A stretch of 64,000 bases of DNA from Nocardioides sp. HDW12B. Its GTDB lineage: Bacteria; Actinomycetota; Actinomycetes; Propionibacteriales; Nocardioidaceae. The stretch spans positions 1 through 64,000 of the forward strand of contig NZ_CP049867.1 of NCBI RefSeq assembly GCF_011299595.1. The letters run 5' to 3'. Every line of letters begins with the position of its first letter. The stretch's first letter is position 1. The notes beneath the pieces were generated by a model that worked only from the letters and a program-made list of their open reading frames with translations, was not told the origin of the DNA and searched no databases. This document shows, piece by piece, positions 20,289 to 56,023 of this stretch. Both the position numbers and the translations under genes were made by a program.

Positions 20289-20324
20289 GGTCGAGCAGGT
20301 CGCGCAGCCACCGTCGTCGAGACC
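20289..20324. repeat. Palindromic repeat, copy B
   Basis: Same 36-base element with inner arms GGTCGC and GCCACC around GCA. With copy A (50 bases apart) it fills the spacer between ugd and the Fur-family gene. Confidence 0.8.
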
Positions 20325-20345
20325 AGGCAACCAGGGGCAGAGACC

Positions 20346-20851: not shown

Positions 20852-21901
20852 ATGCCGAGCCCCCTGCTCACCCTGCCCGGCGCCGTCGCCGCGGAAGGCG
20901 TCGACGCCGAGGTGGCCGCCCACTACGGGTCGTTCAACGTCGAGCAGCGCACCCTCGCCGCCGGCGACGGCTTCGTCGACCTTTCCCACCGCGGCGTCTT
21001 CCGCGTCACTGGTCCCGACCGGCTGACCTACCTGCACGCGATGACCACCCAGCACCTCGAGCGCCTTCAGCCCGGTGTGCCGACCGAGGCGCTGGTGCTG
21101 AGCCCGCAGGGCCACGTCGAGCACCACTTCCGCGGCGTCGACGACGGCGAGACCTTCACCGGCCACGTCGAGCCGGGCCGCGTGGCCGCGCTGGTCGAGT
21201 TCCTCGACCGGATGCGCTTCATGATGCGCGTCGAGGTCACCGACGCCACCGCCGACCTCGCCGTCGCCTGGCGCCCATCGTTGGTCGAGCAGGTTGCGCA
21301 GCAACCGTCGTCGAGACCAGGTTCCCCGGTGGTCGAGCAGGTTGCGCAGCAACCGTCGTCGAGACCCGGTGAGGGACCCGGCAAGTACGACCTGATCCCC
21401 CGCGACCAGCTCGAGAAGTACGCCGCCGCGGCCGGCCCGGCCTGCGGGCTGTGGGCCTTCGAGGCGCTGCGCATCGCCCGCGGCGAGCCCCGCTTCGGCG
21501 TCGACACCGACCACCGCACCATCCCCAACGAGATGGGCTGGGTCGGCCCGGCGGTGCACCTCGACAAGGGCTGCTACCGCGGCCAGGAGACCGTGGCGCG
21601 CGTCCACACGCTCGGGCGCCCGCCGCGGCGACTGGTGCTGCTGCACCTCGACGGCTCGGAGAACGCCCTGCCCCGGCCCGGTGAGACGGTGACGCTGCCC
21701 GGCCCCGGTGGAGCACCCGGCAAGCCGGTCGGTTTCGTCGGGAGCTCGGCGCGCCACCACGAGCTCGGCCCGATCGCCCTCGGCCTGGTCAAGCGCAATG
21801 TCTCGGTGGAATCCCAGCTCGATATCGCTGGCATGCCCGCCGCCCAGGAGGTCCTCGTCGACCCCGAGGTCGGTCTGCACGTGCGTCCGCGGCTGGGCTG
21901 A
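20852..21901 (+). CDS. ygfZ: YgfZ/GcvT-like folate-binding iron-sulfur protein with repeat insertion
   Basis: 349 residues. Aminomethyltransferase-like fold with FVDLSHRGVFRVTGPDRLTYL and the YgfZ hallmark KGCYRGQE; such proteins support assembly or repair of Fe-S clusters. Between VAWRP and KYDLIPRDQL is an insertion of about 34 residues with two repeats of LVEQVAQQPSSRPG, encoded by two in-frame copies of a palindromic DNA element (21283-21318, 21331-21366). The element is 48 bases apart copy to copy, keeping the frame. It probably lies on a surface loop, because both flanks look intact. Confidence 0.9.
   Translation: MPSPLLTLPGAVAAEGVDAEVAAHYGSFNVEQRTLAAGDGFVDLSHRGVFRVTGPDRLTYLHAMTTQHLERLQPGVPTEALVLSPQGHVEHHFRGVDDGETFTGHVEPGRVAALVEFLDRMRFMMRVEVTDATADLAVAWRPSLVEQVAQQPSSRPGSPVVEQVAQQPSSRPGEGPGKYDLIPRDQLEKYAAAAGPACGLWAFEALRIARGEPRFGVDTDHRTIPNEMGWVGPAVHLDKGCYRGQETVARVHTLGRPPRRLVLLHLDGSENALPRPGETVTLPGPGGAPGKPVGFVGSSARHHELGPIALGLVKRNVSVESQLDIAGMPAAQEVLVDPEVGLHVRPRLG
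21283..21318. repeat. Palindromic repeat inside ygfZ, copy C
   Basis: 36-base element with inner hairpin GGTTGC-GCA-GCAACC and outer arms GGTCGA/TCGAGACC. Read in frame within ygfZ. Confidence 0.9.
21331..21366. repeat. Palindromic repeat inside ygfZ, copy D
   Basis: Identical to copy C over the whole 36 bases, 48 bases downstream, also in frame. Near identity points to recent tandem duplication or insertion. Confidence 0.9.
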
Positions 21902-22397: not shown

Positions 22398-24098
22398 CTA
22401 CTTGCGACCGAGCTTGACCGAAGCACTGGCGCCGTCCAGGTAGCCAGTTACTCCTCGTACGACCGCCTGGAGCGAACCACTGGTGCCCACGACGCCCGCG
22501 TTCACCGAAGCGGTCCAGGACCCAGTGGAGGTCGTGACCGCAGAGGCAATCGTGGTCGTGGTTCCACTGGTGGACGTGAGTACCACGTCAACCGGGACCT
22601 GGGCAGCGGGTGACCGCTCGGCGAGGTAGGACCGGGCCACGGAGCCGCTGAACTGGTAGAACTTGCCACTCTTGAAAGCGTTGAACTGGAGCGAGGGCGT
22701 CCATGAGCCCACCATCACCTGTCCGAGCGAATGCTCGGCCGCTGCAAGGGCAGATGTCTGCGAGGTGGCCAGCATCATCTCGCCGCTGTGAGCGGGCGAC
22801 ACGGTCACTGATATTGATCCGTCGTTGGACGTGACAGCACTGCCGAGAAGGGAACCGGCGCCTGAACCGTCCTTGAGCTTGACGGCAACTCTGACCCCCG
22901 CGACGGGTTCCCCATCCGGCATCTGGAGTCGAGCGGACACAGCAACTGGAGACCCGAAGCCCACGTTTGTCCGGTTGACAGATCCGTCGAGAATGGGCGC
23001 GACGCCGGCTCCCAACCGTCCGCCGTCAATCAAGAACCGAGAGTTGGCCACGTTCCAGTGGGTAGCGAGGTAGCTCCCCACTGCCGGATCAGTCGAGAAG
23101 TAGTCATCGCTGTTGCAGTCCAGCAGGAACTCCTGCTCGGGCGAGCACTTCTCGACGACCGCCGCAGAGGGCCCGCCGTCGTTGTAGCAGAGCGTGTCGC
23201 TCTCGTCGTTGCAGTGCCCACTGCCGGTGGCGTTGGGCGCGGAGTTCTGTACGCCGCCCAGATTGTGCGCCAGTTCGTGCGCCTCGACGGAGCGTGTGCC
23301 CGCGGAGTCGCCCAGGCCCCAGCACGCGTTGTCGACTCGCGCGAACATCGGGTATCGACCGTTGTTGGAGTTCGTGTCCGCCGCACTGTCGTCCGGGTAC
23401 TGCTGCGCGACACCGCATAGGGCGTTGGCATCCGTCCACATCAGGTACTTACGAGTCGGGTCTCTATATCCGAGTGCCTTGACGGCAGCGATCGTCGAGG
23501 CGAAGTCCGCGGTGGCTCCCGCAGGGACCTCCACGTTCAGCACCGAGGCTTCACAGGTTCCGTCAGCTGCCGGCTCGGTGACGAACCGCACGTGTCGTAC
23601 GCCGCCTGTTGTGGCGGCAGACTGGCTGAAGACCTCGTCCACACCCGCAGCCCACAGCTTCAGGCTGGACTGAAGGGCAGCGAAGCGGTTGGGCTTCCCC
23701 GCCTCGACCACATACATCGCCTGGACGCGGTAGCCCGTCGTTCCATCGCCGTCGCACGGCACTGCGGTCAGCGCGCCGGCCGAGCTGGTTGAGGTCTCGG
23801 CGATGGAGGGATCAGCTTCGACGACGGCTTGCGTCACGGCCCCGGTGCGCTTCCGCAGCTTTCGAGTGTCCACCCGCGTCCGGACGTCGATCCCTCGAGG
23901 CGCGACGTCGGTGTGGACGCAGACGATGCCGGTGTCCGCGGCGCGCTGAGTCTCACCGTCGCCACACGCGCTGGCTAGGGGAACGCCTGTCGCCCCCGTA
24001 GAAATGACGACCGCGAGGGGTGCCGAGGCCATCGCCAAGGCGAGCGACGCCAAAACGAACCGTCGCGGAGATTGCGTACGCGCAGACTCAGTAAGCAT
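22398..24098 (-). CDS. Secreted zinc metalloprotease with Ig-like C-terminal domains
   Basis: 566 residues, start ATG preceded by GGGAGGA. Signal sequence FVLASLALAMASAPLAVVIS; the catalytic domain (about 100-350) carries HELAHNLGGVQ, with two zinc His and the catalytic Glu. A third ligand is probably the His of GSGHCND, followed by ESDTLCYND, where the Met-turn methionine expected in metzincins is Leu. Cys residues are frequent, as in secreted enzymes. C-terminal residues (about 360-566) form two beta-rich, Ser/Thr-rich Ig-like segments that may bind the cell surface. Substrate unknown. It converges on the VanZ-like gene. Confidence 0.82.
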   Translation of the reverse strand: MLTESARTQSPRRFVLASLALAMASAPLAVVISTGATGVPLASACGDGETQRAADTGIVCVHTDVAPRGIDVRTRVDTRKLRKRTGAVTQAVVEADPSIAETSTSSAGALTAVPCDGDGTTGYRVQAMYVVEAGKPNRFAALQSSLKLWAAGVDEVFSQSAATTGGVRHVRFVTEPAADGTCEASVLNVEVPAGATADFASTIAAVKALGYRDPTRKYLMWTDANALCGVAQQYPDDSAADTNSNNGRYPMFARVDNACWGLGDSAGTRSVEAHELAHNLGGVQNSAPNATGSGHCNDESDTLCYNDGGPSAAVVEKCSPEQEFLLDCNSDDYFSTDPAVGSYLATHWNVANSRFLIDGGRLGAGVAPILDGSVNRTNVGFGSPVAVSARLQMPDGEPVAGVRVAVKLKDGSGAGSLLGSAVTSNDGSISVTVSPAHSGEMMLATSQTSALAAAEHSLGQVMVGSWTPSLQFNAFKSGKFYQFSGSVARSYLAERSPAAQVPVDVVLTSTSGTTTTIASAVTTSTGSWTASVNAGVVGTSGSLQAVVRGVTGYLDGASASVKLGRK

Positions 24099-24441
24099 CC
24101 GAGGGTCCTCCCAGACTCTCTAATCGGGCCCGAGACCCGAGCCGCCCTCCCAAGCGACTCTTAGACCATATGCCACGTATGGGACCTTCGTCCTCACTTT
24201 TCAGGACGACATACCTGTAACACGCAATACGGGATAGGTCTGGCGCTCGCGACGACGTGTCGTCCATGTGGCTGTGCTGCCAGCGGCGGGGGAGGCTGAG
24301 GCGTCGGATTTGTACCCGACGCTGGTGCGAGCGTTACCCTGAGGTGCTCTGCGCGTTGTCTGTTCGTGTGAGCCCGCCACCGCAGTTGCCCTCCCGCGGA
24401 CCGGCGAGTCGGGGGACTTCAGGATCGAGAGGCCTAGCATT
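24099..24441. other. 343-base divergent promoter region
   Basis: No gene seen. It separates the leftward metalloprotease from the rightward glycan operon. It contains three inverted repeats: TCGTCCT/AGGACGA (24188-24209), GACGAC/GTCGTC (24251-24264) and GCGTCGG/CCGACGC (24301-24322). A TAGCAT element at 24435-24440 sits one base before the ATG of the BY-kinase gene at 24442 and 7 bases before the in-frame ATG at 24448. The inverted repeats could bind regulators of the glycan locus. Confidence 0.5.
24301..24322. promoter_or_regulatory. Inverted repeat in the glycan-operon promoter region
   Basis: GCGTCGG and CCGACGC are perfect 7-bp arms around the 8 bases ATTTGTAC, about 120 bases before the BY-kinase start. 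Operator or leader hairpin; unassigned. Confidence 0.4.
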
Positions 24442-25920
24442 ATGGAGATGCGCGACTACGTCCGCGTACTGAGGGCGCACTGGGTGGGCGTCACCCTGAT
24501 CGTGACTCTTGCGGTCGCTTCCGTCGCCCTCTACACCCTGGCGCAACCCAAGGTGTACCAGGCCAATGCCAGCGGCTTCGTCAGCACGGGCCCGAACTAC
24601 GAACCAGGCTTGGGGTCGGTCAACGACCAATTCGCGAAGTCTCGCGCGGTGTCCTACGTCACGCTGGCAGAGAGCCGCGCCACGGCTCGGGAGGTCATTC
24701 GAGAGCTGAAGCTTGATGTGAGCCCGGACGCACTGGTCAACTCGATCGACGTGCTCCAACCCGAGAGCACGGTGAATATCAGGATCACGGCACGGGCAGG
24801 AACGCCGCAGCAAGCGCGCGCCCTGGCGGACGCCTGGGTCGCCGCACTGGCACAACAGATCGACGAGATCGAGGATCCGGAGGGAATCGATCCTGTCGGG
24901 TCGCCCGTGCTTGTGCCCGTCGAGTCCGCAGCCTTACCCGCGGCGCCCATAAGTCCGCAGCCCCTTCGAAATGTCCTGATCGGACTCGCAGTCGGGTTCG
25001 TGCTGGGTCTCGGGTACGCGCTCGTGAGGAACGTCCTGGACCGCCGGCTGCGCACGGCAGCGAGCGTCGTTGAGCGCTTTGGTGTCAACGTGCTCGGAAG
25101 CATCCCCAGCACCCCAGTGCTGGGGCACGGGACGGGTGAGCGCGCAACCCTCATCACGTCGATCGAGAGCAGCGACGCCTCGGGAGCGGGCGAGGCGTTT
25201 CGCAAGCTCAGGACCAATCTGCGGTACATGGCGATCGACGACCCGCCGCGCATCATCGTGGTGACCAGTCCGAAGCCGAGCGACGGGAAGTCGACTGTCT
25301 CGACGAACCTCGCTGCGGCGATGGCCGTGAGTGGACGCCACGTAGTGCTCGTGGACGCGGACCTCCGACGGCCGAGCGTCGCCACGGCGCTCGGCGTCGT
25401 CGAGGGCGTTGGCCTGACAGACGTGCTCGTCGGGCAGATGTCCCCGGCAGACGCTCTCCAGCCTTCCGGGGTCCACGATCTGCTGCAGGTCATGGGGGCA
25501 GGTCGCATTCCGCCAAACCCCAGTGAATTGCTGGGCTCCCAGAGCATGAAAACGCTGGTGGAGAAGTTGTCACAGGATGCGATGGTCATTCTGGATGCGC
25601 CGCCGCTGCTGCCCGTGACCGATGCGGCCGTTCTCACAGCCTGGGCCGATGGAGCGATCATCGTCATCTCGGCAGGTCAAACACTGGATGGTGAGCTGCG
25701 AACTGCACTGGGTCACTTGGAGGCGGTGAACGCCAGGGCGCTGGGCGTCATTCTCAACAAGGTGCCGCGGCGGGGCGCAAACGGCGGGACCTACGCGGGC
25801 TACTACTCCGACCCGTATGGTTCGTCACAGCCCAAGGCCGGTACCGCCGGCTGGTGGCGACAGCTGAAGCGAAAACCCCGCGGGGGGACGGGTGGCAGCC
25901 ACGCGCGGGGCCGTGAGTGA
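24442..25920 (+). CDS. Polysaccharide co-polymerase / tyrosine autokinase (Wzz-BY-kinase)
   Basis: 492 residues. Wzz domain with helices at about 13-35 and 175-195, then a cytosolic BY-kinase domain: Walker A SPKPSDGKST, Walker A' VVLVDADLRRP, Walker B MVILDAPP. A Tyr cluster near the C-terminus (YAGYYSDPYG) is the expected autophosphorylation tail. It controls chain length and export of exopolysaccharide, and would be opposed by the Wzb-like phosphatase at 56024. Family members start MELRDYLRVLR, matching the ATG at 24442. It heads a co-oriented operon and overlaps the next gene by 4 bases (GTGA). Confidence 0.93.
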   Translation: MEMRDYVRVLRAHWVGVTLIVTLAVASVALYTLAQPKVYQANASGFVSTGPNYEPGLGSVNDQFAKSRAVSYVTLAESRATAREVIRELKLDVSPDALVNSIDVLQPESTVNIRITARAGTPQQARALADAWVAALAQQIDEIEDPEGIDPVGSPVLVPVESAALPAAPISPQPLRNVLIGLAVGFVLGLGYALVRNVLDRRLRTAASVVERFGVNVLGSIPSTPVLGHGTGERATLITSIESSDASGAGEAFRKLRTNLRYMAIDDPPRIIVVTSPKPSDGKSTVSTNLAAAMAVSGRHVVLVDADLRRPSVATALGVVEGVGLTDVLVGQMSPADALQPSGVHDLLQVMGAGRIPPNPSELLGSQSMKTLVEKLSQDAMVILDAPPLLPVTDAAVLTAWADGAIIVISAGQTLDGELRTALGHLEAVNARALGVILNKVPRRGANGGTYAGYYSDPYGSSQPKAGTAGWWRQLKRKPRGGTGGSHARGRE

Positions 25921-26216
25921 CGCCAAGAGACTCGATGCTTCAGCGAGCGGCCGTCGCTGAAGTTGTCAGCCCAGGCGAACTTCGCGTAGCGCTGCTACGT
26001 CTGAATGACCTCGCAGCGCCGCCCGTGGTCCTGGAGGGGGTCGCGTTCGTGCTGTGGACCCTGTTCACCGTCGAGACGACGCATGCCCATGTCGCGGAGA
26101 AAGCTGCTGTGCTGTGGCCGGGCGAGGACCTGCAGTACCAACGTGAAGTCATCACAGCCTTCGTGGACGACCTACTCGTCCTTGGTCTTCTCGAGGAGTC
26201 CGTGACGCATGAGTGA
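25917..26216 (+). CDS. PqqD-like protein (RiPP recognition element fold)
   Basis: 99 residues, GTG start overlapping the kinase stop; an ATG seven codons in is an alternative. The body follows PqqD: LRVALLRLNDLAAPPVVLEGVAFVLWTLF, then a helix-rich second half with VITAFVDDLLVLGLLEE. PqqD-like folds bind leader peptides in ribosomal peptide (RiPP) pathways, including lasso peptide protein B1. It is one of two PqqD-like genes flanking an HPr-kinase-like gene. No precursor peptide was found in the module. Confidence 0.75.
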   Translation: MTPRDSMLQRAAVAEVVSPGELRVALLRLNDLAAPPVVLEGVAFVLWTLFTVETTHAHVAEKAAVLWPGEDLQYQREVITAFVDDLLVLGLLEESVTHE

Positions 26217-26955
26217 CATTCAGCTGTGCGCGCTGGGTGTGCCAGTGCGCGTGTGCATTGAGGATATTCTGGCTCCGCGCTTCGTGAGTGCATGGGAGCT
26301 GTGCCTGGCTGAACACGCCTCCGAAACCGATCTGGTGGTCGAGCAGTCGAGCAGCGACGATGTCGACTCAGCCCTCGAGAGACTGACTCGAGACGTGACC
26401 CGCTCTGTCATTGACGCGAATGCTGGTCGACTCCTGATGTTGCATGCGTGCGCTGTGGGGCGGCCAGAGACCGGGGAAGCCGCCGTCTTTGTCGGACGTT
26501 CGGGTGCTGGCAAGACGACCCTTGTGCAGGCGTTGACCGAGCACGGATGGCACTACCTCACCGACGAGACGGTGGGGATCCGTGCGGACGGTACGAAGAT
26601 CATCGAGCCGTACCCCAAACCCCTGTCTGTCGTCTCGTCCTCTGGCCCCAAGGTGCAGGCGCTGCCCCGAGGCCTGATGTCAGAGAGCTGGCGGAGGTCG
26701 TCCATTATCCCGTTCACTGTTTCAGCGGTCTTCCTCCTGGATCGCGGCCAGCACTCGATCGCGACAGTTACGCCGCTGCCAACTGCCCGGGCGCTGCCCC
26801 CGCTTGCTGCCCAGTCCTCGCACCTGTCGGCACTCCGTGGCCCTTTGGGTGTGTTGGCGAGCCTGGCCACCGACGCGAATCCTTTCCGGATCCTGACCTA
26901 TGGGGAGGCGTCGAAGGTGCCCGCTGCATTGGCGACGTCATGGGCAGCCCCATGA
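26209..26955 (+). CDS. HPr-kinase-like P-loop protein
   Basis: 248 residues, overlapping the upstream PqqD gene by 8 bases. P-loop VGRSGAGKTTLVQAL at about residue 90, then YLTDETVGIRADG, a region resembling the HprK catalytic segment, in a 150-residue C-terminal half. Upstream half lacks the usual HprK N-terminal domain. Such proteins recur beside PqqD-like proteins and nucleotidyltransferases in RiPP (lasso) clusters, where they phosphorylate precursor peptides, and also in glycan loci. Its substrate here is not identifiable; the gene for HPr is not nearby. Confidence 0.8.
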   Translation: MSDIQLCALGVPVRVCIEDILAPRFVSAWELCLAEHASETDLVVEQSSSDDVDSALERLTRDVTRSVIDANAGRLLMLHACAVGRPETGEAAVFVGRSGAGKTTLVQALTEHGWHYLTDETVGIRADGTKIIEPYPKPLSVVSSSGPKVQALPRGLMSESWRRSSIIPFTVSAVFLLDRGQHSIATVTPLPTARALPPLAAQSSHLSALRGPLGVLASLATDANPFRILTYGEASKVPAALATSWAAP

Positions 26956-27224
26956 GGTGGGCTGCCGTCAGTATCGCGGACGTGTGGCAGGGATCGGGTG
27001 AGGCCGTCCTGCTGCTCGACGACAACCGCGTCGTGACACTCGGCCCGGGTGCCACGGCGCTGTGGAACGCGCTTGGCGCTGGGCCCATGGGGATCGGCGT
27101 TCTTGTCGAAGCTGTCGAGGACGCCCTCGGGCCCCCGCCGGACGGCGTAGACGCGCGAGAATTGACAGAGATCTCGCTCCGTGAACTGGTACAAAACGGA
27201 ATACTGCGTGAGATTGCGGACTAG
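26952..27224 (+). CDS. Second PqqD-like protein
   Basis: 90 residues from the ATG that overlaps the HprK-like stop (ATGA); an ATG at 26940 would add four residues. PqqD pattern: DDNRVVTLGPGATALWNAL, then LVEAVEDALG and ISLRELVQNGILRE. Diverged from the first PqqD-like gene; two recognition elements in one operon suggests two partners or a heterodimer. Coupled translation is likely. Confidence 0.75.
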   Translation: MRWAAVSIADVWQGSGEAVLLLDDNRVVTLGPGATALWNALGAGPMGIGVLVEAVEDALGPPPDGVDARELTEISLRELVQNGILREIAD

Positions 27225-27312
27225 GGCCCTTCGTCCGGTTGTGCCTAGCCCCCCTTCATGGCTTAACATCTGCTCGATGGATTCGCAGAATCACGGTCCA
27301 AGGGGGACACGC

Positions 27313-27906
27313 ATGACTTCGCAGCACTCGAACGACTCGCGCGGCACGGCCGCCGAGGTCACGCGACGAACGCTCATTCGAACGGGTGCTAACGCCGCGT
27401 GGGCTGCGCCTGTCGTCGCCATCGTGGCGACGGCCCCGAAGTTCGCTCTCGTGAGTCATGAGCCGGGGCACGACGGCCCCATTACGCCGGCCGCGGCGCC
27501 GAACCTGCAAGTGTCGAGTTTCGACGCAGCCCGCAGGGTTCCCAACAACGAGAAGAAGTTGGTCGATGGTTCATTCACCCTGACCAATGTTGGTGACGCC
27601 GTCGCCCCCGCAACGACCACGACTGTGGAGCTCACCATCACCCAGGGCAGCTACGGGACGTCGTTCGCCCCGAGCGTCACGGCCGGGAACACTGCGTGGA
27701 CGCGGGTGACTGACTTTGTCGGAGCTACCTGGCCCAAGAAGGCGACCTTCAAGCTCAACAACGACCTCGCCCCGAATGCAGCCGTGGCCTTGGCGTTCCT
27801 GGTCGACACCAAGCAGACTCAGCCCTCTACTTCTGCCATCACACTCGAGGTCACGCCAAAGGTCGGTACCGAGTCCTACGCGGCGAAGACGGACACGTTT
27901 AACTGA
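27313..27906 (+). CDS. Tat-exported protein of the PqqD/HprK module
   Basis: 197 residues, ATG after AGGGGG. N-terminal RRTLIRTGANAAWAAPVVAI is a twin-arginine-type signal. The mature part is a single beta-sandwich-like domain (SFTLTNVGDAVAPATTTTVEL, AVALAFLVDTK, SAITLEVTPK) ending YAAKTDTFN. It lies between the second PqqD gene and the nucleotidyltransferase, 88 bases after the former and one base before the next gene, so co-transcription is likely. It is exported and non-enzymatic in appearance; it may be a surface target of the module (inference). Confidence 0.75.
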   Translation: MTSQHSNDSRGTAAEVTRRTLIRTGANAAWAAPVVAIVATAPKFALVSHEPGHDGPITPAAAPNLQVSSFDAARRVPNNEKKLVDGSFTLTNVGDAVAPATTTTVELTITQGSYGTSFAPSVTAGNTAWTRVTDFVGATWPKKATFKLNNDLAPNAAVALAFLVDTKQTQPSTSAITLEVTPKVGTESYAAKTDTFN

Positions 27907-27907
27907 G

Positions 27908-28825
27908 GTGACCGAGCAAGCGCTCGGTCTACAGCCGGCGGAGGCCGGGCTGTTGGCGCATGTTCTCGTCGGACGTGCGCTGCAGTCGGCCGAGGTGGAC
28001 GCCGTCATCATAAAGGGTCCGACGCTGGCATCACGCGGACTCAGAGCCGAACGGCTCTCGCACGACGTCGATGTTCTGGTGCGCCCTCGGCAGGTGAGCA
28101 CCGCCCTCCAGGTGATGCAAGACCTGGGATGGGAGCTTGAGGCGCCAGCGGGCAGCCGGCGCCGCTCGATCTCCGGACACGTGGGTGCCACACTCGGACA
28201 CAGGCTGTGGCCCCTTCAGATCGATGTGCACGAGTCATTCCCTGGTTTCTGCTTCGACAACGACGTCGTCTTCGACGAGTTGTGGCACAGACGCGAGGCC
28301 GTCGTGATCGCCGGCGTCGAGGTGGTCAGCGTGGACAGGCCGACGAGTGCCGCCATTGGAGCCCTGCACGCTCTGCGAGACATTGCTGTACAAGGCCCGG
28401 CCTACAGCGACCTTGTGAGTCACGCGCGGCATGTGATGTCGGCCGAAGAGCTCGAGCAACTTTCGACGCTGGCGCGGGTGACCGGTGCTCAATTACCTCT
28501 CGCGCCCTTCCTCCGGGATCTCGGGCTCCCTGTACATCTCACTGGGGAGGACCACGAGATATCCCGGGCCTGGCGGGTGCGCCAGGCAGTGGGGGGACGA
28601 CGCTCCGCCACGTGGGTGTACGCCCTCCTAGACGCCCCTCCGAGGTCCTGGCTCAGCATCGTCGGAGAAGCGCTCGCGGTGACGCCCGCGGACGTGCGGA
28701 CTCCCGATGGCAGCGAGTCCCCTCGCGGTCTGCGCCTCGGGCAGTTGCGACGCATCGGACGGGGATTGCTCGCACTTCCGATGGCTGTTTGGGCGGTCGC
28801 GCGCGCAATGAAACGGCGCCGGTGA
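27908..28825 (+). CDS. NTP_transf_5-type nucleotidyltransferase
   Basis: 305 residues from GTG immediately after the previous stop. Motifs: KGPTLASRGL and LSHDVDVLVRPRQV with the DxD metal pair of the nucleotidyltransferase fold, then WPLQIDVHESF with a third acidic residue. The C-terminal half is helical and Arg-rich, ending MKRRR. Family members (NTP_transf_5, PF14907) are frequent next to PqqD/HprK-like genes and in lasso clusters; they probably transfer a nucleotide or related group to a protein or peptide. Substrate unknown. Confidence 0.82.
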   Translation: MTEQALGLQPAEAGLLAHVLVGRALQSAEVDAVIIKGPTLASRGLRAERLSHDVDVLVRPRQVSTALQVMQDLGWELEAPAGSRRRSISGHVGATLGHRLWPLQIDVHESFPGFCFDNDVVFDELWHRREAVVIAGVEVVSVDRPTSAAIGALHALRDIAVQGPAYSDLVSHARHVMSAEELEQLSTLARVTGAQLPLAPFLRDLGLPVHLTGEDHEISRAWRVRQAVGGRRSATWVYALLDAPPRSWLSIVGEALAVTPADVRTPDGSESPRGLRLGQLRRIGRGLLALPMAVWAVARAMKRRR

Positions 28826-28979
28826 TCGGAACAGGGCACTAGGTCCCGTCGCGCACCATCACTTTGCCCGAATGTCGCACCCTTTGGTCCGATGTGACTG
28901 AGTAGTGCATCTGTTCTATCCTGAGGACATCGAGAGCGCGATCAGCGCCCGAGGCATCCAAGGGTGACGGGGGTCCCAC

Positions 28980-30908
28980 ATGTCTGACCTGCTTGCACGC
29001 GTTCGTCGGCGTCGTTTCGCCTACCTCTTCATGGCGGACACCGCCGTGTGGTTGGCCTGCTTCGGAGCGTTCGCGGTCCTGCGTCGCGTTCTCGAAGGGA
29101 TGGGAGCGAGAGAGTCGGCCGAGCTCACGAGTTGGGCCGCCGTCCTCGGGCTTGCCCTCACTGCGGCGGCCTTGCACGTGTCGTGCGGACTGGTCTTCCG
29201 GCTTCATCAGGGCCGGGCGCCCATGGGAAGCACTGAGGAGATGCTGTCGCTGACCATGATCGCCGGATTCACCGGCTTTGCGGTCACGGTGCTCAACGTC
29301 CTGGTCGGGCGCCCGGTTCCGGGCAGCGTTCCCCTGGCGGGCGCCGCCCTCGCTACCGTGGTCATGGCGACCTACCGGGCCACGTATCGGGCGAGCATGG
29401 ACCAGACGCTCTGGACGGGGCGACGCTACGAGCACCGCGATCAGGACGGTGTCGGCCGAGCGATTGTCCTCGGAGCAGGCGACGCGGGGCTGAAGCTCGT
29501 CCGGTCGATGCTCGCTGACGGAAGCATGCGATTGTCGCCGGTCGCCATGCTCGACGACGACCGGGCGCGTCGGCATCGCCGGGTCGGACCCGTCAGAGTC
29601 CTGGGCAGCCGAGAAGACGTGGCTGCGGTAGCGGAGAGCACCGGCGCTCGGACCCTCATCATCGCCATCCCGAGCGCATCGTCGTCGGACATCCGCGAGC
29701 TGAGCCAGCCGGCACTCGACGCCGGTCTCGAAGTAAAGGTTCTCCCGCCCGTCCACGAACTCCGGGAGCCGGGGAAGGTAGCCGTTGATGACGTACGTGA
29801 CATCGATGTCACCGACCTGCTCGGCAGGCACCAGATCGACACCGACATCGACTCGATGGCCGGTTACCTGACAGGCAAGCGAGTCCTGGTCACCGGTGCG
29901 GGCGGGTCCATCGGCTCTGAGCTGTGCCGGCAGATCGCGAAGTTCAACCCGGCGGAGCTGATCATGCTGGACCGTGACGAGTCGGCACTTCACGCGGTGC
30001 AGCTCTCCATCTACGGACGCGCCCTGCTCGACTCGGACGACGTGGTGCTCGGGGACATCCGGGACTCATTGTTCGTGGACGCTCTGTTCGATCAGCGCAA
30101 GCCCGACGTGGTCTTCCACGCGGCGGCACTCAAGCACCTCCCCATGCTCGAGCAGTATCCAGGCGAAGCCGTCAAGACCAACGTCTGGGGGACCTTGAGC
30201 ATCCTGGAGGCGGCGAAGACTCACAAGGTCGAGAAGTTCGTCAACATCTCGACGGACAAGGCCGCCAACCCGTGCAGCGTCCTGGGGTACTCGAAGCGCT
30301 TGGCGGAGGGGCTGACCGCGGCGGTGGCCGCAGATGCGGAGGGCACCTTTCTCTCGGTGCGGTTCGGCAACGTCTTGGGCAGTCGCGGTAGCGTCTTGAC
30401 CGCCTTCTCGGCGCAAATCAAGGCGGGTGGCCCCGTTACCGTCACGGATCCCGATGTGACGCGGTACTTCATGACCGTCCAGGAAGCCGTCCAGCTCGTG
30501 ATCCAGGCTGCGGCCATCGGCAACGACGGCGAGGCGCTCGTGCTTGACATGGGGCAGCCCGTCTCGATCGATGGGGTCGCGCGGCAGCTCATCGAGCTCT
30601 CCGGTGAGGACATCGACGTTGTCTACACCGGGCTTCGAGGTGGAGAGAAGATGCACGAAGAGCTGTGGGGGGACGGAGAGGCAGACGTGCGTTCCAGCCA
30701 CCCGCTCGTCTCCCACACTCCCGTGCCGCCCTTCGACGCTCTGGAGGCGCGCGAGCTCGACCCCTGGTCGTCGCCCGACATCGTCATCGGTTCGTTCCGA
30801 CGCTCTGTCGCGCGCATGACCCGACAGATGCCGGCTCAGCGGCGAGGCGCGGATGAGTACGCGGACGTCGCGGAGTTCGAGCTCTCCAAGCGTTGGTCGC
30901 ACACGTGA
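28980..30908 (+). CDS. Membrane NDP-sugar 4,6-dehydratase (PglF/CapD/WbpM family)
   Basis: 642 residues. Four N-terminal membrane helices (about 14-130) then two NAD-binding regions: IVLGAGDAGLKLVR and, for the catalytic SDR domain (about 300-560), VLVTGAGGSIGSELCRQI, AAALKHLPMLE, NISTDKAANP, and GYSKRLAE where the family normally has a Met before the Tyr-position; here it is Leu. The enzyme makes the 4-keto-6-deoxy intermediate of UDP-GlcNAc for bacillosamine-type sugars. It overlaps the aminotransferase by 4 bases. Confidence 0.92.
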   Translation: MSDLLARVRRRRFAYLFMADTAVWLACFGAFAVLRRVLEGMGARESAELTSWAAVLGLALTAAALHVSCGLVFRLHQGRAPMGSTEEMLSLTMIAGFTGFAVTVLNVLVGRPVPGSVPLAGAALATVVMATYRATYRASMDQTLWTGRRYEHRDQDGVGRAIVLGAGDAGLKLVRSMLADGSMRLSPVAMLDDDRARRHRRVGPVRVLGSREDVAAVAESTGARTLIIAIPSASSSDIRELSQPALDAGLEVKVLPPVHELREPGKVAVDDVRDIDVTDLLGRHQIDTDIDSMAGYLTGKRVLVTGAGGSIGSELCRQIAKFNPAELIMLDRDESALHAVQLSIYGRALLDSDDVVLGDIRDSLFVDALFDQRKPDVVFHAAALKHLPMLEQYPGEAVKTNVWGTLSILEAAKTHKVEKFVNISTDKAANPCSVLGYSKRLAEGLTAAVAADAEGTFLSVRFGNVLGSRGSVLTAFSAQIKAGGPVTVTDPDVTRYFMTVQEAVQLVIQAAAIGNDGEALVLDMGQPVSIDGVARQLIELSGEDIDVVYTGLRGGEKMHEELWGDGEADVRSSHPLVSHTPVPPFDALEARELDPWSSPDIVIGSFRRSVARMTRQMPAQRRGADEYADVAEFELSKRWSHT

Positions 30909-32035
30909 CCCTGAAGGTCTTGTTGTCACCTCCAGACGTCGGCGAGACGGAGGAGCAGTACGTACTCCAAGCACTCAGATCGGGGTGGGTGGCGCCTGCC
31001 GGGCCTGACCTCGATGCATTCGAGGCCGAGATCGCATCGAGGGTAGGCGTTCGGCACGCGGTCGGTCTGAGCTCGGGGACTGCTGCGTTGCATCTGGCCC
31101 TCGTTTCGTGGGGCGTTGGCGATGGCGATGTCGTGATCGTCCCGACGATGACCTTCGCGGCGACTGCTAATGCAGTTTGTTACGTAGGAGCGCGACCGCA
31201 CTTCGTCGACTGCGACCCGGCCACGGGGAACATCAGCCCGGAGCTGCTCGAGTCGGCCCTGGACGAGCTCGCGGGGTCCGGAGCGCGGGTGCGGGTGGTC
31301 ATCGCGGTCGACCTCTTCGGTCACTGCGCTGACTATGCCCGCATCGAGGCCGTCGCCGCATCGCGCGGGCTGAAGCTCCTGTGTGACAGCGCGGAGTCCT
31401 TCGGTGCTAGAGGTGCTGGGCGGCCGGCTGGCTCTCATGGCGATGCAGCCGTCCTCTCCTTCAATGGAAACAAGGTGATGACCACCTCGGGCGGCGGCAT
31501 GCTGCTGACTGACGACGGTCATCTGGCGGCCCACGTTCGGAAGCTCTCTACCCAGTCACGGGAGCCGGTACCTCACTACGAGCATGTTGAGATCGGCTAC
31601 AACTACCGACTGTCTAACCTCCTCGCAGCACTCGGCCGCGGGCAGCTCTCCCGTTTGGACGACATGATCGAGCGGCGGCGCCAGTGGCGCGGGGCCTATC
31701 GAGATCTGTTCGCTGATACTCCGGGCGTCCGACTACTCGCCCCGGAGGACGATGCAGACGACAACTGTTGGCTCACAGCCGTCGTAGTGAATCCGTGCGC
31801 AGCCCCGTGGGCGGCGGAGGATCTGGGAGCCTCGATGGCTCGTCACGGTGTCGAGTCACGGCGAGTCTGGAAGCCCATGCATGCGCAGCCAGTTTTCGCT
31901 GGTCTTTCCTCGACCCTGGACGGCAGCGCGGATCGGATCTTTGACTACGGTGTCGTTCTTCCGTCCGGCTCCAAGATGACCGACGACGACTTCGCCCTGG
32001 TGTCCGCGGCCGTCGAGGCAGTCGGCTGCCGATGA
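30905..32035 (+). CDS. DegT/DnrJ/EryC1 sugar aminotransferase (PglE type)
   Basis: 376 residues from the GTG overlapping the dehydratase stop. PLP fold-type I: SSGTAALHLAL, PTMTFAATANAV, VDLFGHCADY, DSAESFGA, and the Schiff-base lysine in NGNKVMTTSGGG. With the upstream 4,6-dehydratase it should place an amino group at C4 of the sugar, giving UDP-4-amino-4,6-dideoxy-HexNAc. No PglD-type acetyltransferase is seen in the window, so the sugar may stay as the amine or be modified otherwise. Confidence 0.92.
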   Translation: MTLKVLLSPPDVGETEEQYVLQALRSGWVAPAGPDLDAFEAEIASRVGVRHAVGLSSGTAALHLALVSWGVGDGDVVIVPTMTFAATANAVCYVGARPHFVDCDPATGNISPELLESALDELAGSGARVRVVIAVDLFGHCADYARIEAVAASRGLKLLCDSAESFGARGAGRPAGSHGDAAVLSFNGNKVMTTSGGGMLLTDDGHLAAHVRKLSTQSREPVPHYEHVEIGYNYRLSNLLAALGRGQLSRLDDMIERRRQWRGAYRDLFADTPGVRLLAPEDDADDNCWLTAVVVNPCAAPWAAEDLGASMARHGVESRRVWKPMHAQPVFAGLSSTLDGSADRIFDYGVVLPSGSKMTDDDFALVSAAVEAVGCR

Positions 32036-45962: not shown

Positions 45963-47213
45963 TCAGTTGCCGCTGTTAATCATCCCAGCGCCCACCGTGA
46001 CGCCTGTTGCCTCGTCAATGAGGATGAAAGACCCAGTCGTGCGGTTCTTGGAGTACGGGTCGCACAACAACGGGACCGTGGTGCGCAACTGTACGCGTGC
46101 GATCTCGTTGACACCGATCTCCTTGGTCTCCTGATCGCGGTGCAGCGTATTCACGTCCAGGCGGTACTGAATGTCCTTCACCAGCGCACGACCCACCCGC
46201 GTCGTGTGCTTGATGGCCAGCTTCTGCCGCGGCTTCAGCGGCTCCGTGGTCATCCAACAGATCATCGCGTCGATGTCCTGGCTCGGCTTCGGGGCATTCG
46301 CCGGTCGGCAGATCATGTCGCCGCGAGAGACGTCGACGTCGTCCTCGAGGCGGACCGTCACGGACATGGGCGGGTAGGCCTCGGTGATCTCCTTCTCGTG
46401 GAGATCAATGCCGGCGATCTTGCTGGTCATGCCGGACGGCAGGACGAGGACATCGTCCCCGGGCTTGAGCACGCCGCCGGCCACCATGCCGCCGTACCCG
46501 CGGTAGTCGTGGTGGGCGTCCGACTTCGGTCGGATGACGTACTGCACCGGGAAGCGTGCGTCGACCAGGTCGCGGTCGGAGGCCACGTGCACGTGCTCGA
46601 GGTGATGCATGAGCGAGGGACCCTTGTACCAGTCCATGTGCTCGCTGCGGTTGACGACGTTGTCGCCTTTGAGAGCCGAGATCGGGATGATCTCGAGGTC
46701 AGGGATCGAGAGCTTCGTGGCAAACGCCGTGAACTCCTCGTGGATCTTGTTGTAGATGCTCTCGTCGTAGTCGACCAGGTCCATCTTGTTCACCGCGAGC
46801 ACCAGGTGGGGGACCCGCAGCAGCGACAGGATCACCGCGTGGCGGCGAGACTGCTCGGTCAGGCCCTGACGGGCGTCGACAAGCACGAGACCGAGGTCGG
46901 CGGTCGAGGCGCCGGTGACCATGTTGCGCGTGTACTGCACGTGGCCGGGGGTGTCCGCGATGATGAACTTCCGCGCGGGGGTGGCGAAGTAGCGGTAGGC
47001 GACATCGATCGTGATGCCCTGCTCCCGCTCGGAGCGAAGACCGTCGGTGAGCAGCGCAAGGTCGGTGTAGTCGTAGCCGCGCGACTTCGACGTCGACTCC
47101 ACGGCCTCGAGCTGGTCCTCGAAGATCGACTTGGAGTCAAGCAGAAGTCGTCCGATGAGAGTGGACTTGCCGTCGTCGACCGAGCCGGCGGTGGCGAAAC
47201 GGAGCAGGTCCAT
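45963..47213 (-). CDS. cysN: Sulfate adenylyltransferase GTPase subunit CysN
   Basis: 416 residues. EF-Tu-like GTPase with G1 GSVDDGKSTLIG, G3 DTPGH, G4 NKMD and G5 ISAL, followed by two beta-barrel domains. It drives APS formation by CysD. Its length fits the CysN form without a fused APS kinase. The gene overlaps cysD by one base (47213). Unlike the glycan core around it, it has normal high GC. Confidence 0.96.
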   Translation of the reverse strand: MDLLRFATAGSVDDGKSTLIGRLLLDSKSIFEDQLEAVESTSKSRGYDYTDLALLTDGLRSEREQGITIDVAYRYFATPARKFIIADTPGHVQYTRNMVTGASTADLGLVLVDARQGLTEQSRRHAVILSLLRVPHLVLAVNKMDLVDYDESIYNKIHEEFTAFATKLSIPDLEIIPISALKGDNVVNRSEHMDWYKGPSLMHHLEHVHVASDRDLVDARFPVQYVIRPKSDAHHDYRGYGGMVAGGVLKPGDDVLVLPSGMTSKIAGIDLHEKEITEAYPPMSVTVRLEDDVDVSRGDMICRPANAPKPSQDIDAMICWMTTEPLKPRQKLAIKHTTRVGRALVKDIQYRLDVNTLHRDQETKEIGVNEIARVQLRTTVPLLCDPYSKNRTTGSFILIDEATGVTVGAGMINSGN

Positions 47214-48127
47214 CAGAAGTAGCCTTCCTTCTTGCGGTCTTCCATGGCTGCCTCGGAGAAGCGGTCGTCACCACGGGTGGCGCCTCGCTCGGTGACCCGG
47301 GCGATGGCGATCTCTTCGATGATCTCGGGGATGGTGCTGGCTGTGCTCTCCACGCAGCCGGTGAGGGTGAGGTCGCCGACGGTCCGGAAGCGGACGGTCT
47401 TCTCCTCGACGGTCTCGCCCTGCTTGGTGGGGTTGTGCTCGCTCTCGCTCAGCAGCATGCCGTCGCGCTGGAAGACGCGGCGCTGGTGGCTGAAGTAGAT
47501 GTTGGGGATCTCGATGTTCTCGCGACCGATGTAGTCCCAGACGTCGAGTTCGGTCCAGTTCGAGATCGGGAAGATGCGCATGTGCTCACCCTCGTGGAGA
47601 CGCCCGTTGTAGAGGCTCCACAGCTCGGGGCGCTGCATCTTCGGGTCCCACTGACCGAACTCGTCGCGGTGAGAGTAGACACGCTCCTTGGCGCGGGCCT
47701 TCTCCTCGTCGCGACGACCGCCGCCGAAGGCCGCGGTGAAGCCGCCCTCCTCAAGGGCGTGCAGCAGCGTGCCGATCTGGAGACGGTTGCGCGAGGTCTT
47801 GCCGTCGTCGACGACGGTGCCGTCCTTGATGGCCTCCTCGACGCTCGCGACGATCAGGCGGACGCCGAGGCGGTCGACCCAGTGGTCGCGGGTCTCGAGC
47901 ACCTCGGGGAAGTCGTAGCCGGTGTCGACCTGCAGCACCGGGAACGGGATCTTCGCCGGGTAGAAGGCCTTTTCGGCGAGACGCATCATGACGATGGAGT
48001 CCTTGCCGCCGGAGAACATGAGGACCGGCTTCTCGAACTCGGCGGCGACCTCACGGAAGATGTGGATCGACTCCGCTTCCAACTCATCGAGCTGGCTCAG
48101 CCGGTAGTCGGCGTGCGTTGCTGTCAT
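47213..48127 (-). CDS. cysD: Sulfate adenylyltransferase subunit CysD
   Basis: 304 residues. PAPS-reductase-like PP-loop fold with LMFSGGKDSIVMMRLA, LQVDTGYDFPE and the CysD-typical FGGGRRDEEKARAKER and C-terminal ERGATRGDDRF. It catalyses ATP + sulfate to APS with CysN. Upstream 95 bases (48128-48222) hold its promoter. No cysH, cysI or CysJ genes are in the window, which favours a role in sulfation over assimilation. Confidence 0.96.
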   Translation of the reverse strand: MTATHADYRLSQLDELEAESIHIFREVAAEFEKPVLMFSGGKDSIVMMRLAEKAFYPAKIPFPVLQVDTGYDFPEVLETRDHWVDRLGVRLIVASVEEAIKDGTVVDDGKTSRNRLQIGTLLHALEEGGFTAAFGGGRRDEEKARAKERVYSHRDEFGQWDPKMQRPELWSLYNGRLHEGEHMRIFPISNWTELDVWDYIGRENIEIPNIYFSHQRRVFQRDGMLLSESEHNPTKQGETVEEKTVRFRTVGDLTLTGCVESTASTIPEIIEEIAIARVTERGATRGDDRFSEAAMEDRKKEGYF

Positions 48128-53765: not shown

Positions 53766-54212
53766 ATGATCAAGAAAGCGGCCGTCAAGGCCACCGTCGG
53801 CACCGCCGCAGCTTCGCTGCTCTTCCTGCCGGGAGCGACCATGGTCGCAGCACCGTCACTCGAGCTCATGGCCTGCTCGTACCCGGACTCCGTTGTGACG
53901 ACGACCGAGCTCGAGCTCGCCAAGTCAGTCGTTCGCCGAGGTGAGCGCAACCAGGCCCGGGTCGAGGTGCGGTCCAGTGGACCCACGCCGCGGGGCGAGG
54001 TGCGGCTGACGATCCGCAAGGACACGCGAAACGGGTCCAAGGTCGTTTGGGGACGCACCAAGGGACTCAACCAGAACGGCGTTGCGCGATTCAAGCGTGT
54101 CAAGACCAACCTTGCGCCTGACACCTACGAGGTGCGCGCTCAGTACCTGGGGAAGTGCCGATTCCGCGACTCCAGTGACACGGACTTCATGACGGTTCGG
54201 CCGCGCCGCTGA
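53766..54212 (+). CDS. Small secreted Ig-like protein
   Basis: 148 residues. Signal peptide (AAVKATVGTAAASLLFLPGA, cleaved near AAPS), then a single beta-sandwich Ig-like domain (KSVVRRGERNQARVEV, GEVRLTIRKDT, TYEVRAQYLG) and a basic end (RPRR). Two Cys (ACSYP, GKCRF) could form a disulfide. 32 bases before the DUF4012 gene, so probably co-expressed. Confidence 0.75.
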   Translation: MIKKAAVKATVGTAAASLLFLPGATMVAAPSLELMACSYPDSVVTTTELELAKSVVRRGERNQARVEVRSSGPTPRGEVRLTIRKDTRNGSKVVWGRTKGLNQNGVARFKRVKTNLAPDTYEVRAQYLGKCRFRDSSDTDFMTVRPRR

Positions 54213-54244
54213 TCGATCAGCAACCCTCTGAGTCCTCCTCACGC

Positions 54245-56005
54245 ATGGCTCGGAGCCGATCTGATCGCAACGGACTCCGACGAGGCATTCTCGCCGGAGT
54301 CTTTGTTGTGCTTTTTCTCTTGCTGTTCACGGTGTGGCAGGCCCTTGTCGTCAAGAATGCGCTGACGGACGCGGCTGCTGACCTGAAGGTCGCCGCGAAG
54401 AAGTTTGGTGAGGGACGTGACCGTCAGGCGGCTGCGCGTCTCGAGGCCGCTGCATCGTCAGCGAGTCGAGCGCAACGCAACACCACCGGTCCCATTTGGT
54501 GGATCGCCAGCTACCTACCCGACGTCGGCGACGACGTCGAGGCCGTGCGGACAGTTAGTGCTGTCGCCGATGACTTGCTGGGTGGGGCCCTCCCAGGGCT
54601 GACGGAAGGCGGGTCCGCAGCGAGACCTGAGGCCTTCCGACCTGTGCGTGGGCGATTTGACATCGAGGGGATCAAAGCTGCTCAGCCGATCCTCGCCTCC
54701 TTGGCCGACGACGTCTCCAAAGGGAATGCGCGGGTTGCAACGCTTGATACTCCAGGGCTGATCGTCCCTCTGAGAACGAGGGTCCTTGACCTGCAGGAGA
54801 CGCTGGAACTCGCCGACTCTGCCGCGAGAGCTGCTGCCTCGGCGGCAGAACTCATGCCCACGATGCTGGGTCAGGACGGCAAACGGACCTATCTTCTGCT
54901 GTTCCAGAACAATGCTGAGATCCGAGCGCAAGGCGGCATGCCGGGGGCCCTCGCGATCATCGAGGCCGAGGATGGGAGCGTTCGCATGACGCGGCAAGGG
55001 GCTCCTCGCGACATCGGAACGTTTCCGCGCCCCTTCGTCGATCTCACCGGGGAGGAAGTGGAACTCTTCACGACTCGGGCAGCCATCTATCCCCAGGACA
55101 CCGTCTTCATCCCAGACTTCCCGCGAAGCTCGAGCATCGTCAGTCAGATGTGGGAGCGTCGCCAACCCGAGGAACTTGACGGAGTCCTGTCGGTGGACCC
55201 AGTTGCTCTCTCGTACTTGTTGCGGGCGACAGGCCCGGTCCGATTGGCTGGCGGCCAGGTCGTCACAGCGACGGACGCTCGTGACTACCTCATGCGGGAG
55301 GTGTACCTCGACGTCCGGGGCGAGAAGGCGCAGAACACGATCTTTGCTGACACCGCAAGAGGCGCGTTCGACGCCTTGACAGGCGGATCGGTCGAACCCG
55401 CGGCACTGTTGCGCGCGGTGGCGGAAGCAACCACCGAACGCAGGATCATGGTGTGGTCGGAAAGATCCGAGGAGCAAGACTTGCTCGCCGGAACTGCGAT
55501 CGGTGGGGACCTGCCGGTAGCCGCAAACGAGCGCCCCGAGGTGGGCGTCTATGTGAACGACTCCGCAGCGGACAAGTTGAGCGCCTATTTCGACTACCGG
55601 GTGGATGTCAGCGCTCGAACGTGCTCGGCCGATCGGCAAACGCTCGACGTGCAGGTCACGATGACCTCGACGGTGCCTGCAGGAGTCACCCTTCCGACAT
55701 CGGTCGTTGGCCCCCCAACCAACCCAACGCGCCCTGGGGACATCTTGAACTCCGTCTATCTCTATGCGCCGCCAGGTGGCTACATCGTGTCAGCAGATCT
55801 CGATGGACAAGAGCCGCCACTCGGTGACTACACCTACAGGGGACGCGATGTCGGCGCGGTTACCGTGGGGCTGGAGAGAGGCGAGACCCGAACCCTCTCC
55901 TATGAGGTTCGGACGGGTGAGGGCGAGACGGGCGACCCCCGTCTGATCACCACACCAGGGGCGCTCGGCAGTGGGATGGGTGACGTCAGTGCCACAGCAT
56001 GCTGA
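54245..56005 (+). CDS. DUF4012 membrane-anchored surface protein
   Basis: 586 residues. N-terminal basic segment and one helix (GILAGVFVVLFLLLFTVWQAL), then an all-outside region: Ala-rich helical part (about 35-200) and the DUF4012 core with LLLFQNNAEIRAQGGMPGA and YLLRATGPV. DUF4012 genes are recurrent in actinobacterial exopolysaccharide loci, though their chemistry is unknown. Followed after 18 bases by the LMW phosphatase gene. Confidence 0.88.
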   Translation: MARSRSDRNGLRRGILAGVFVVLFLLLFTVWQALVVKNALTDAAADLKVAAKKFGEGRDRQAAARLEAAASSASRAQRNTTGPIWWIASYLPDVGDDVEAVRTVSAVADDLLGGALPGLTEGGSAARPEAFRPVRGRFDIEGIKAAQPILASLADDVSKGNARVATLDTPGLIVPLRTRVLDLQETLELADSAARAAASAAELMPTMLGQDGKRTYLLLFQNNAEIRAQGGMPGALAIIEAEDGSVRMTRQGAPRDIGTFPRPFVDLTGEEVELFTTRAAIYPQDTVFIPDFPRSSSIVSQMWERRQPEELDGVLSVDPVALSYLLRATGPVRLAGGQVVTATDARDYLMREVYLDVRGEKAQNTIFADTARGAFDALTGGSVEPAALLRAVAEATTERRIMVWSERSEEQDLLAGTAIGGDLPVAANERPEVGVYVNDSAADKLSAYFDYRVDVSARTCSADRQTLDVQVTMTSTVPAGVTLPTSVVGPPTNPTRPGDILNSVYLYAPPGGYIVSADLDGQEPPLGDYTYRGRDVGAVTVGLERGETRTLSYEVRTGEGETGDPRLITTPGALGSGMGDVSATAC

Positions 56006-56023
56006 CCGAGCGAGAGGATCGGC

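Follow-up and report, generated by a model that had tools for sequence, protein, structure and literature searches.

Linear polyphosphorylated peptides (LPPs) of Bacillota, described by Popov et al. 2026 (PMC13381572) with clusters such as lpp from Paenibacillus alginolyticus, were found in capsule loci together with a discrete RiPP recognition element (RRE; RiPP, ribosomally synthesized and post-translationally modified peptide), an HprK-like kinase, a nucleoside triphosphate (NTP) transferase, a SipW-like peptidase, and an MsbA-like exporter. The LPP leader displayed Tyr at -16 (Y-16xxP), and the kinase LppK phosphorylated Ser3; LPPs were described as restricted to Bacillota, and the role of the NTP transferase was not found by its authors (PMC13381572). 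Most discrete lasso RREs recognize [Y/W]xxPx[L/V/I/A/F/Y] and paeninodin RREs favor WxxP (PMC13381572), while W/Y/LxxP recognition groups were distinguished among RREs (PMC12710340). The Sec-exported bufferins set the precedent of a signal peptide acting as leader, and their authors speculated that a partner masks the signal until modification (PMC12452194). This analysis concerned a stretch of 64,000 nucleotides (the window; positions 1 to 64,000 of contig NZ_CP049867.1) from Nocardioides sp. HDW12B, the genome of which is one contig of 4,192,138 bases, and in particular a five-gene module therein (Table 1) encoding two discrete RRE-like proteins (PqqD1 and PqqD2), an HprK-like P-loop kinase (K), a protein with a twin-arginine translocation (Tat) signal of an unusual type (Tat-W protein), and a nucleotidyltransferase (NT). 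We consider it likely that the module carries out RRE-guided post-translational modification of whole Tat-exported proteins, with the Tat signal doubling as RiPP leader and K phosphorylating the new N-terminus before export.

The module and the LPP clusters (PMC13381572) shared (i) a discrete RRE, an HprK-like kinase, an NTP transferase, and the capsule-locus setting and (ii) a [Y/W]xxP motif, an aromatic residue at -16, a Ser just past the cleavage site, and a conserved N-terminus followed by a variable C-terminus. They differed in that the module type had as its proposed precursor a Tat-signal protein of 117-537 residues, W instead of Y, no HQxIxFET stretch, at least two RREs in 21/31 loci (see below), proposed substrates dispersed across the genome, no SipW-like peptidase detected close to K in a motif scan, and a host from Actinomycetota; in place of the LPP precursor pattern (35-200 residues, YxxPxVLxHQxIxFETxxS), WxxPx[VI]...PAxA-[A]S was found. 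Paeninodin-like lasso peptides, as known partly from the same paper (PMC13381572) and partly as general background, had in common with the module a WxxP leader motif, a discrete RRE (B1), an HprK-like kinase, and a nucleotidyltransferase, but no B2 protease or macrolactam synthetase was found in the module, and whole proteins are its proposed substrates. The bufferins modified by MNIO enzymes resembled it in the replacement of the leader by a signal peptide and in some protein-size substrates, but they had a Sec signal, MNIO enzymes, and DUF2063-type partners, and neither an HprK-like kinase nor WxxP in a Tat signal was seen in the accessible part of their description (PMC12452194). No description of such a system was found in the open PubMed Central literature (subscription papers and preprints lying largely outside it), and nothing relevant on the annotation 'HPr-rel-A' was found among the open PubMed Central papers listed.

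The Tat proteins shared the unusual signal RR...W-x-x-P-x-[V/I]......P-A-x-A-A-S, and its W-x-x-P-x-[V/I] part in HDW12B was the lasso/LPP leader motif bound by RREs. A profile of this signal (A2; 20 seed sequences from K loci, with the Ser column included) matched at E<=1e-6 one protein in the 4.19-Mb HDW12B genome, namely the module's own Tat protein. A total of 77 Tat-W signals were compared, in which W..P was demanded by selection while the residue W+5 was free, and from which four profile matches without WxxP (three in L070 and one in L067) were excluded: W+5 was V/I/A/L and thus fitted the lasso consensus in 77/77, P was found at W+12 in 77/77, and A at W+15 in 74/77. The distance from W to the cleavage site was a fixed ruler of 15 residues, which places W at -16 when counted from the end of the AxA site. 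Across 72 full proteins (the 77 minus L024, L082, and the K-negative cases L083-L085), R18, R19, W30, P33, and P42 were the only invariant columns, all of them within the signal; judged by sequence, these proteins displayed the twin arginine, the hydrophobic region, and the AxA-type site of Tat substrates. These proteins gave few Pfam matches at E<=0.01 (RCC1-like in three, GH18 in one, and single weak Ig-like, PKD, and other ones), and five of them searched against NCBIfam matched no model save one chance match (E 0.023); the HDW12B protein had a weak CARDB match (E 0.025). A hydrophobic run near the C-terminus was present in 3/77, and LPxTG or PEP-CTERM-like motifs in 0/77 when the final 40 residues were searched with simple motifs.

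Because A2 itself contained the Ser column, it was rebuilt as profile A5 ending at W+12, which detected 88 places in 24/25 K-positive genomes, with 70 unique sequences in hand, 50 of them non-seed. At W+17 of these 50, Ser was present in 43 and Thr in five, counts that include many paralogues and relatives and thus are not phylogenetically independent; the background of Ser at mature +4 to +29 in Tat-W proteins was 3-14%. The Ser was located at mature +2 in most relatives and at +3 in HDW12B.

Tat-W genes were almost confined to genomes with K, as seen in three samples: (i) 83/91 K-positive versus 2/300 K-negative genomes in the order sample (391 genomes; K at E<=1e-10); (ii) 11/13 versus 0/85 among 98 relatives (HDW12B counted throughout); and (iii) 18/19 strong-K genomes versus 3/375 others in the class sample (394 genomes, searched with K alignment A1), where K was detected in 37 genomes, of which 19 scored E<1e-40 and were clearly set off from the remainder, this strong-K cut being chosen after the gap was seen (for the counts at 1e-10, see below). 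Since A2 was built from K loci, non-seed genomes provided the fair test, and Tat-W was present in 11/12 strong-K genomes of the class sample that had given no A2 seed; it was likewise present in 67/75 K-positive order-sample genomes new to the searches (G478 and above). Genomes with Tat-W carried 1 to 18 such genes (14 each in G046 and G055, and 18 in G697), often distant from K. Eight K-positive order-sample genomes had no Tat-W call, two of which harbored a sub-threshold WxxP Tat protein near K (~0.6 kb away in G724 and ~1.6 kb in G775); an in-frame TAG inside K, with no Tat-W, was found at G626:C1:2125961-2126371 and G751:C43:23757-24167 (one genus, perhaps one event). Tat-W without K was found in G448 and G587 of the order sample and in G448, G318, and G327 of the class sample.

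Tat-W followed K, not wzc: homologues of the polysaccharide chain-length gene wzc (E<=1e-40) were present in 43/98 relatives, and all 11 of these with K had Tat-W, whereas none of the 32 without K did. Ordinary Tat signals, matched with PF10518 at E<=1 and for the most part under its cut-off, numbered 3-16 per genome in four K-positive and four K-negative genomes alike, and WxxP was absent from 14/14 legible ones among 30 such control loci, the other 16 being unreadable or doubtful and left uncounted.

K matched TIGR04352 (HprK-related kinase A, HprK_rel_A of NCBIfam) at E 3e-11 and with 42.9 bits, well below the cut-off of 200, which pointed to a relationship between kinase families. Structural models of PqqD1 and K were compared with known structures; K displayed a PEPCK/HprK-type fold at superfamily level, PEPCK entries dominated, and a free-standing HPrK structure was absent among the 50 structural matches listed. 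The label 'HprK-like' was given because of the TIGR04352 match and the shared superfamily, and at that superfamily level K agreed with the kinase of LPPs. NT matched PF14907 above cut-off (E 6e-10), in agreement with the LPP NTP transferase. Sequence searches of the Protein Data Bank (PDB) with K and PqqD2 gave P-loop or chance matches only. PqqD1 matched no Pfam family, and PqqD2 matched PF05402 at E 0.065 only; because the PF05402 search of the whole HDW12B genome recovered neither of them, homologues were sought via K. In the resulting alignments, 18/19 proteins of the PqqD1 group (A3; HDW12B PqqD1 was the sole miss) and 20/25 of the PqqD2 group (A4) matched PF05402 at E<=0.1. The AlphaFold2 (AF2) model of PqqD1 (confidence score pLDDT 87) had as its best PDB match the lasso RRE TbiB1 with its leader (E 6.7e-5, TM 0.81/0.90), so the modeled fold of PqqD1 is that of a lasso RRE, and the PF05402 groups together with this model agreed with a discrete RRE of the LPP type.

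Table 1. Genes of the module, its two neighbors, and key residues of the Tat-W protein (positions in the window)
Feature	Position	Strand	Evidence or remark
Wzc-type polysaccharide chain-length/tyrosine-kinase gene	24442..25920	+	TIGR01007 above cut-off; 5' partner of module
PqqD1, discrete RRE-like protein	25917..26216	+	group A3 and PF05402, AF2 model
K, HprK-like P-loop kinase	26209..26955	+	P-loop at residue 96, YLTDET at residue 116
PqqD2, second discrete RRE-like protein (K-adjacent group)	26952..27224	+	group A4 and PF05402
Tat-W protein, 197 aa, proposed protein-size precursor	27313..27906	+	
Tat signal: RR 18-19, W30-x-x-P33-x-V35, P42, cleavage expected after A45	27364..27447	+	
Ser48, candidate phosphorylation site (mature +3, W+18)	27454..27456	+	sequence
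NT, PF14907 nucleotidyltransferase, KG...DVDVLV motif, GTG start	27908..28825	+	
CapD/FlaA1-type nucleotide-sugar dehydratase, next glycan-locus gene	28980..30908	+	PF02719, E 4e-101

The five same-strand module genes were nearly gapless and flanked by wzc and capD homologues, with spacings of -4 bp (wzc/PqqD1), -8 bp (PqqD1/K), -4 bp (K/PqqD2), +88 bp (PqqD2/Tat), +1 bp (Tat/NT), and +154 bp (NT/capD); the positions and strand of all five open reading frames (ORFs) in the original prediction were borne out. The 88-bp gap contained one promoter-like match (9/12; mean 0.4 in shuffles of 24200-29100), and thus the Tat-W and NT genes may additionally have a promoter of their own, as read from sequence. 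The surrounding exopolysaccharide locus encoded glycosyltransferases, EpsG, a pyruvyl transferase, and a priming sugar transferase. At its far end (53766-56611), consecutive genes encoded an exported-looking Ig-like protein (Big_3_5 below cut-off), a DUF4012 protein, and a low-molecular-weight tyrosine phosphatase (LMW-PTP).

The sequence comparison was also applied to 31 strong-K loci (weak-K loci L024, L025, L032, and L078-L082 left out; L026 dropped as a duplicate of L019, being the same record; L067 and L068 from one genome; and L027-L031 possibly overlapping with other sampled genomes), and the search for related loci with the K alignment gave seven loci. PqqD was located directly 3' of K in 30/31 loci, and within 12 kb of K there were at least two PqqD genes in 21, a wzc homologue in 25, an NT homologue in 20, a Tat-W protein in 15, and LMW-PTP in 14 of the 31. 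K and PqqD were found in one open frame in 11 relatives' loci (with two PqqD matches in the L069 frame), the gene order wzc-PqqD1-K-PqqD2-Tat-NT-capD was repeated in the same-genus relative L017, and Demequina activiva (L028:11097-13566) harbored four tandem Tat-W genes with dissimilar mature parts beside K-PqqD. The gene set is genuine, and the K-PqqD adjacency speaks against a chance neighborhood; the doubt raised earlier, that the set might occur only as unrelated neighbors, was refuted by the co-occurrence of Tat-W with K. Among the eight weak-K loci, a Tat protein with WxxP was located no more than ~4 kb from K or PqqD in six (L024, L025, L078, L080, L081, and L082), and none was seen in L032 and L079; the loci of 5/18 weak-K genomes of the class sample were fetched at length. 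Such diverged K/PqqD sets near WxxP Tat proteins suggest that diverged forms of the arrangement may extend over Actinomycetota more widely.

The original prediction had suggested that the module may be RiPP-like and have an exported protein as its target. The genome search that it proposed, for the set with and without the Tat protein, yielded the co-occurrence of 83/91 versus 2/300 given above, genomes with distant Tat-W genes included, and this together with the RRE-binding consensus in the signal lent support to that reading. Its statement that no precursor was present looks wrong: the Tat protein itself resembles a precursor and may be the 'missing' one. The proposed mechanism is based mainly on the agreement with LPPs in enzymes, motif, ruler, and target residue. 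PqqD1 and/or PqqD2 would bind W-x-x-P-x-[V/I] in the hydrophobic region of the signal as they would a leader, a step suggested by motif, fold, and co-occurrence; the docking would set the 15-residue ruler and offer the Ser at mature +2/+3 to K, which, by analogy with LppK, would phosphorylate it in the cytoplasm. More tentatively, NT might act later, possibly on the phosphate. As a further, speculative step, the RRE would mask the signal and so retain the protein until it is modified, after which it would exit by Tat and be cut after A-1 with its modified N-terminus exposed, and this N-terminus would perhaps be used in capsule or matrix from the same locus, the link of the system to glycans being a tentative one.

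An alternative is a pure proofreading function, in which the PqqD proteins would be Tat signal-binding chaperones (TorD and DmsD are of this kind), K would be their regulator, and the exported protein would stay unmodified. An RRE fold and a signal motif are equally suited to chaperoning, and the mature parts had no invariant residue in the 72 proteins, but proofreading leaves unexplained the Ser at W+17 (43/50) past the cleavage site and the occurrence of K in one frame with PqqD; moreover, among three Tat-W proteins read from K-negative genomes, this Ser was absent in two (Thr in G448, L083; Gln in G327, L085) and kept in G318 (L084). We regard this explanation as unlikely. Still less probable is a role in capsule regulation, in which Wzc or another capsule protein would be the target of K, the PqqD proteins, and NT, and the Tat protein would be a co-regulated matrix protein: the wzc homologues (25/31) and LMW-PTP (14/31) within 12 kb and the 4-bp wzc/PqqD1 overlap would fit, but Tat-W tracked K and not wzc (0/32 wzc-positive K-negative genomes), K-positive genomes carried Tat-W genes distant from K, and no wzc homologue was found nearby in 6/31 K loci.

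The enzymes also match those of paeninodin/LPP clusters (PMC13381572), as would be expected if the true substrate were an unannotated lasso or LPP precursor, with the Tat protein as a bystander. However, the scan of 24401-31000 for first-start ORFs of 20-90 codons with [YW]xxPx[LVIAFY] in the first 45 residues gave one 20-residue antisense frame only, no asparagine-synthase-type cyclase homologue was found in 39 fetched K loci (most reaching ~10 kb either side of K), and the co-occurrence of Tat-W with K speaks against a bystander, so such a hidden peptide is very improbable. The macrolactam synthetase C was not encoded in the module, no B2 transglutaminase-like protease was found among 27 HDW12B proteins of the window scanned with Pfam, and no MsbA-like exporter was found among the module genes, no search dedicated to it being made. 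No SipW-like (archaeal-type SpI) peptidase was detected when the window and 42 loci were scanned by motif, a scan that a diverged peptidase could escape; the sole signal-peptidase-like ORF was LepB-like and located in L075. An equally slight chance is given to WxxP being a local Tat-signal style of these actinomycetes: a few families supplied most cases, but the same-genus genomes G001, G003, and G004 had neither K nor Tat-W while G001 and G003 had ordinary Tat signals, and the legible ordinary signals lacked WxxP (0/14).

The window also contained an asparagine-synthase homologue (PF00733; 39629-41044, minus strand) ~14 kb from K, which was absent from the original prediction; the idea that it served as a lasso cyclase was dropped because no such homologue was found in the 39 K loci, mostly ending ~10 kb from K.

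Several observations weigh against the proposed system. With K taken at E<=1e-10, the class-sample counts were 18/37 versus 3/357, and 18 class-sample genomes had weaker K-like kinases and no A2-type signal; K-positive genomes G658, G692, G718, and G729 of the order sample and G397 of the class sample gave no match even at E<=0.1 (K of G658 was weak, and G692, G718, and G729 were draft genomes). Fisher's p for the order sample (1e-72) comes from a test that ignores relatedness; better support is provided by the patchy spread of K (17/40 genera of the order sample) with Tat-W following it. PqqD1 and PqqD2 of HDW12B were both individually under the Pfam cut-off. In HDW12B itself, the Ser was at W+18 (mature +3), not W+17, and Lys was found at -3 of the cleavage site. 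L070 (G326), a K-PqqD fusion locus, had three Tat signals with L/I replacing W (GAALAVPAI, GSAIAVPAI), possibly reflecting changed RRE specificity. Within 12 kb of K, NT was not found in 11/31 loci and wzc not in 6/31, so that neither the later steps nor the connection to glycans would hold throughout. In the LPP paper, deletion of lppN (NTP transferase) gave no detectable change and LppK failed on S3T (PMC13381572), versus Thr at W+17 in 5/50 sequences here.

A broader proposal is a system of Actinomycetota that modifies and sorts proteins genome-wide and corresponds, at the N-terminus, to PEP-CTERM/exosortase, where one glycan-linked processing module serves several otherwise unrelated exported substrates by one short signal. 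The K/PqqD module would mark the 1-18 unrelated Tat-exported proteins, the first Ser after the signal would be phosphorylated and then nucleotidylated or glycosylated, and the substrates would be joined to or anchored in the exopolysaccharide of the same locus. The two systems would be alike in the single glycan-linked module and in several unrelated exported substrates with one short signal, but the signal here was an N-terminal Tat signal and a C-terminal sorting signal was found in 0/77. We hold this proposal to be possible but doubtful as a whole.

Several other features were observed in the window. A short repeat (VVEQVAQ[QP]PSSRPG as read) was present twice within an otherwise conserved-looking ORF at 20852-21901 and again at ~20290-20340, downstream of the preceding gene, with a related-looking string in L063. 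The minus-strand gene at 22398-24098 encoded an exported-looking protein with a weak transthyretin-like match and an HELAHNLGG motif, which we take to be zinc-metalloprotease-like. Two minus-strand ORFs at 45963-48127 adjoined the glycan locus and, judged by the start of their sequences, are presumably CysN/CysD sulfate adenylyltransferase subunits.

RiPP machinery guided by RREs is familiar chiefly from short peptides, and here it was apparently retargeted to whole exported proteins via an RRE motif in the Tat signal; if true, the LPP-type chemistry of small peptides would extend to an exported protein family. The proposal links RiPP biosynthesis, Tat export, and capsule loci in a testable form, predicts, for dozens of genomes, which proteins are substrates and which residue is modified, and suggests a short tag that could direct N-terminal phosphorylation of an exported protein. 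It also offers a possible function for RRE/HprK/nucleotidyltransferase sets in glycan loci that otherwise lack an explanation.

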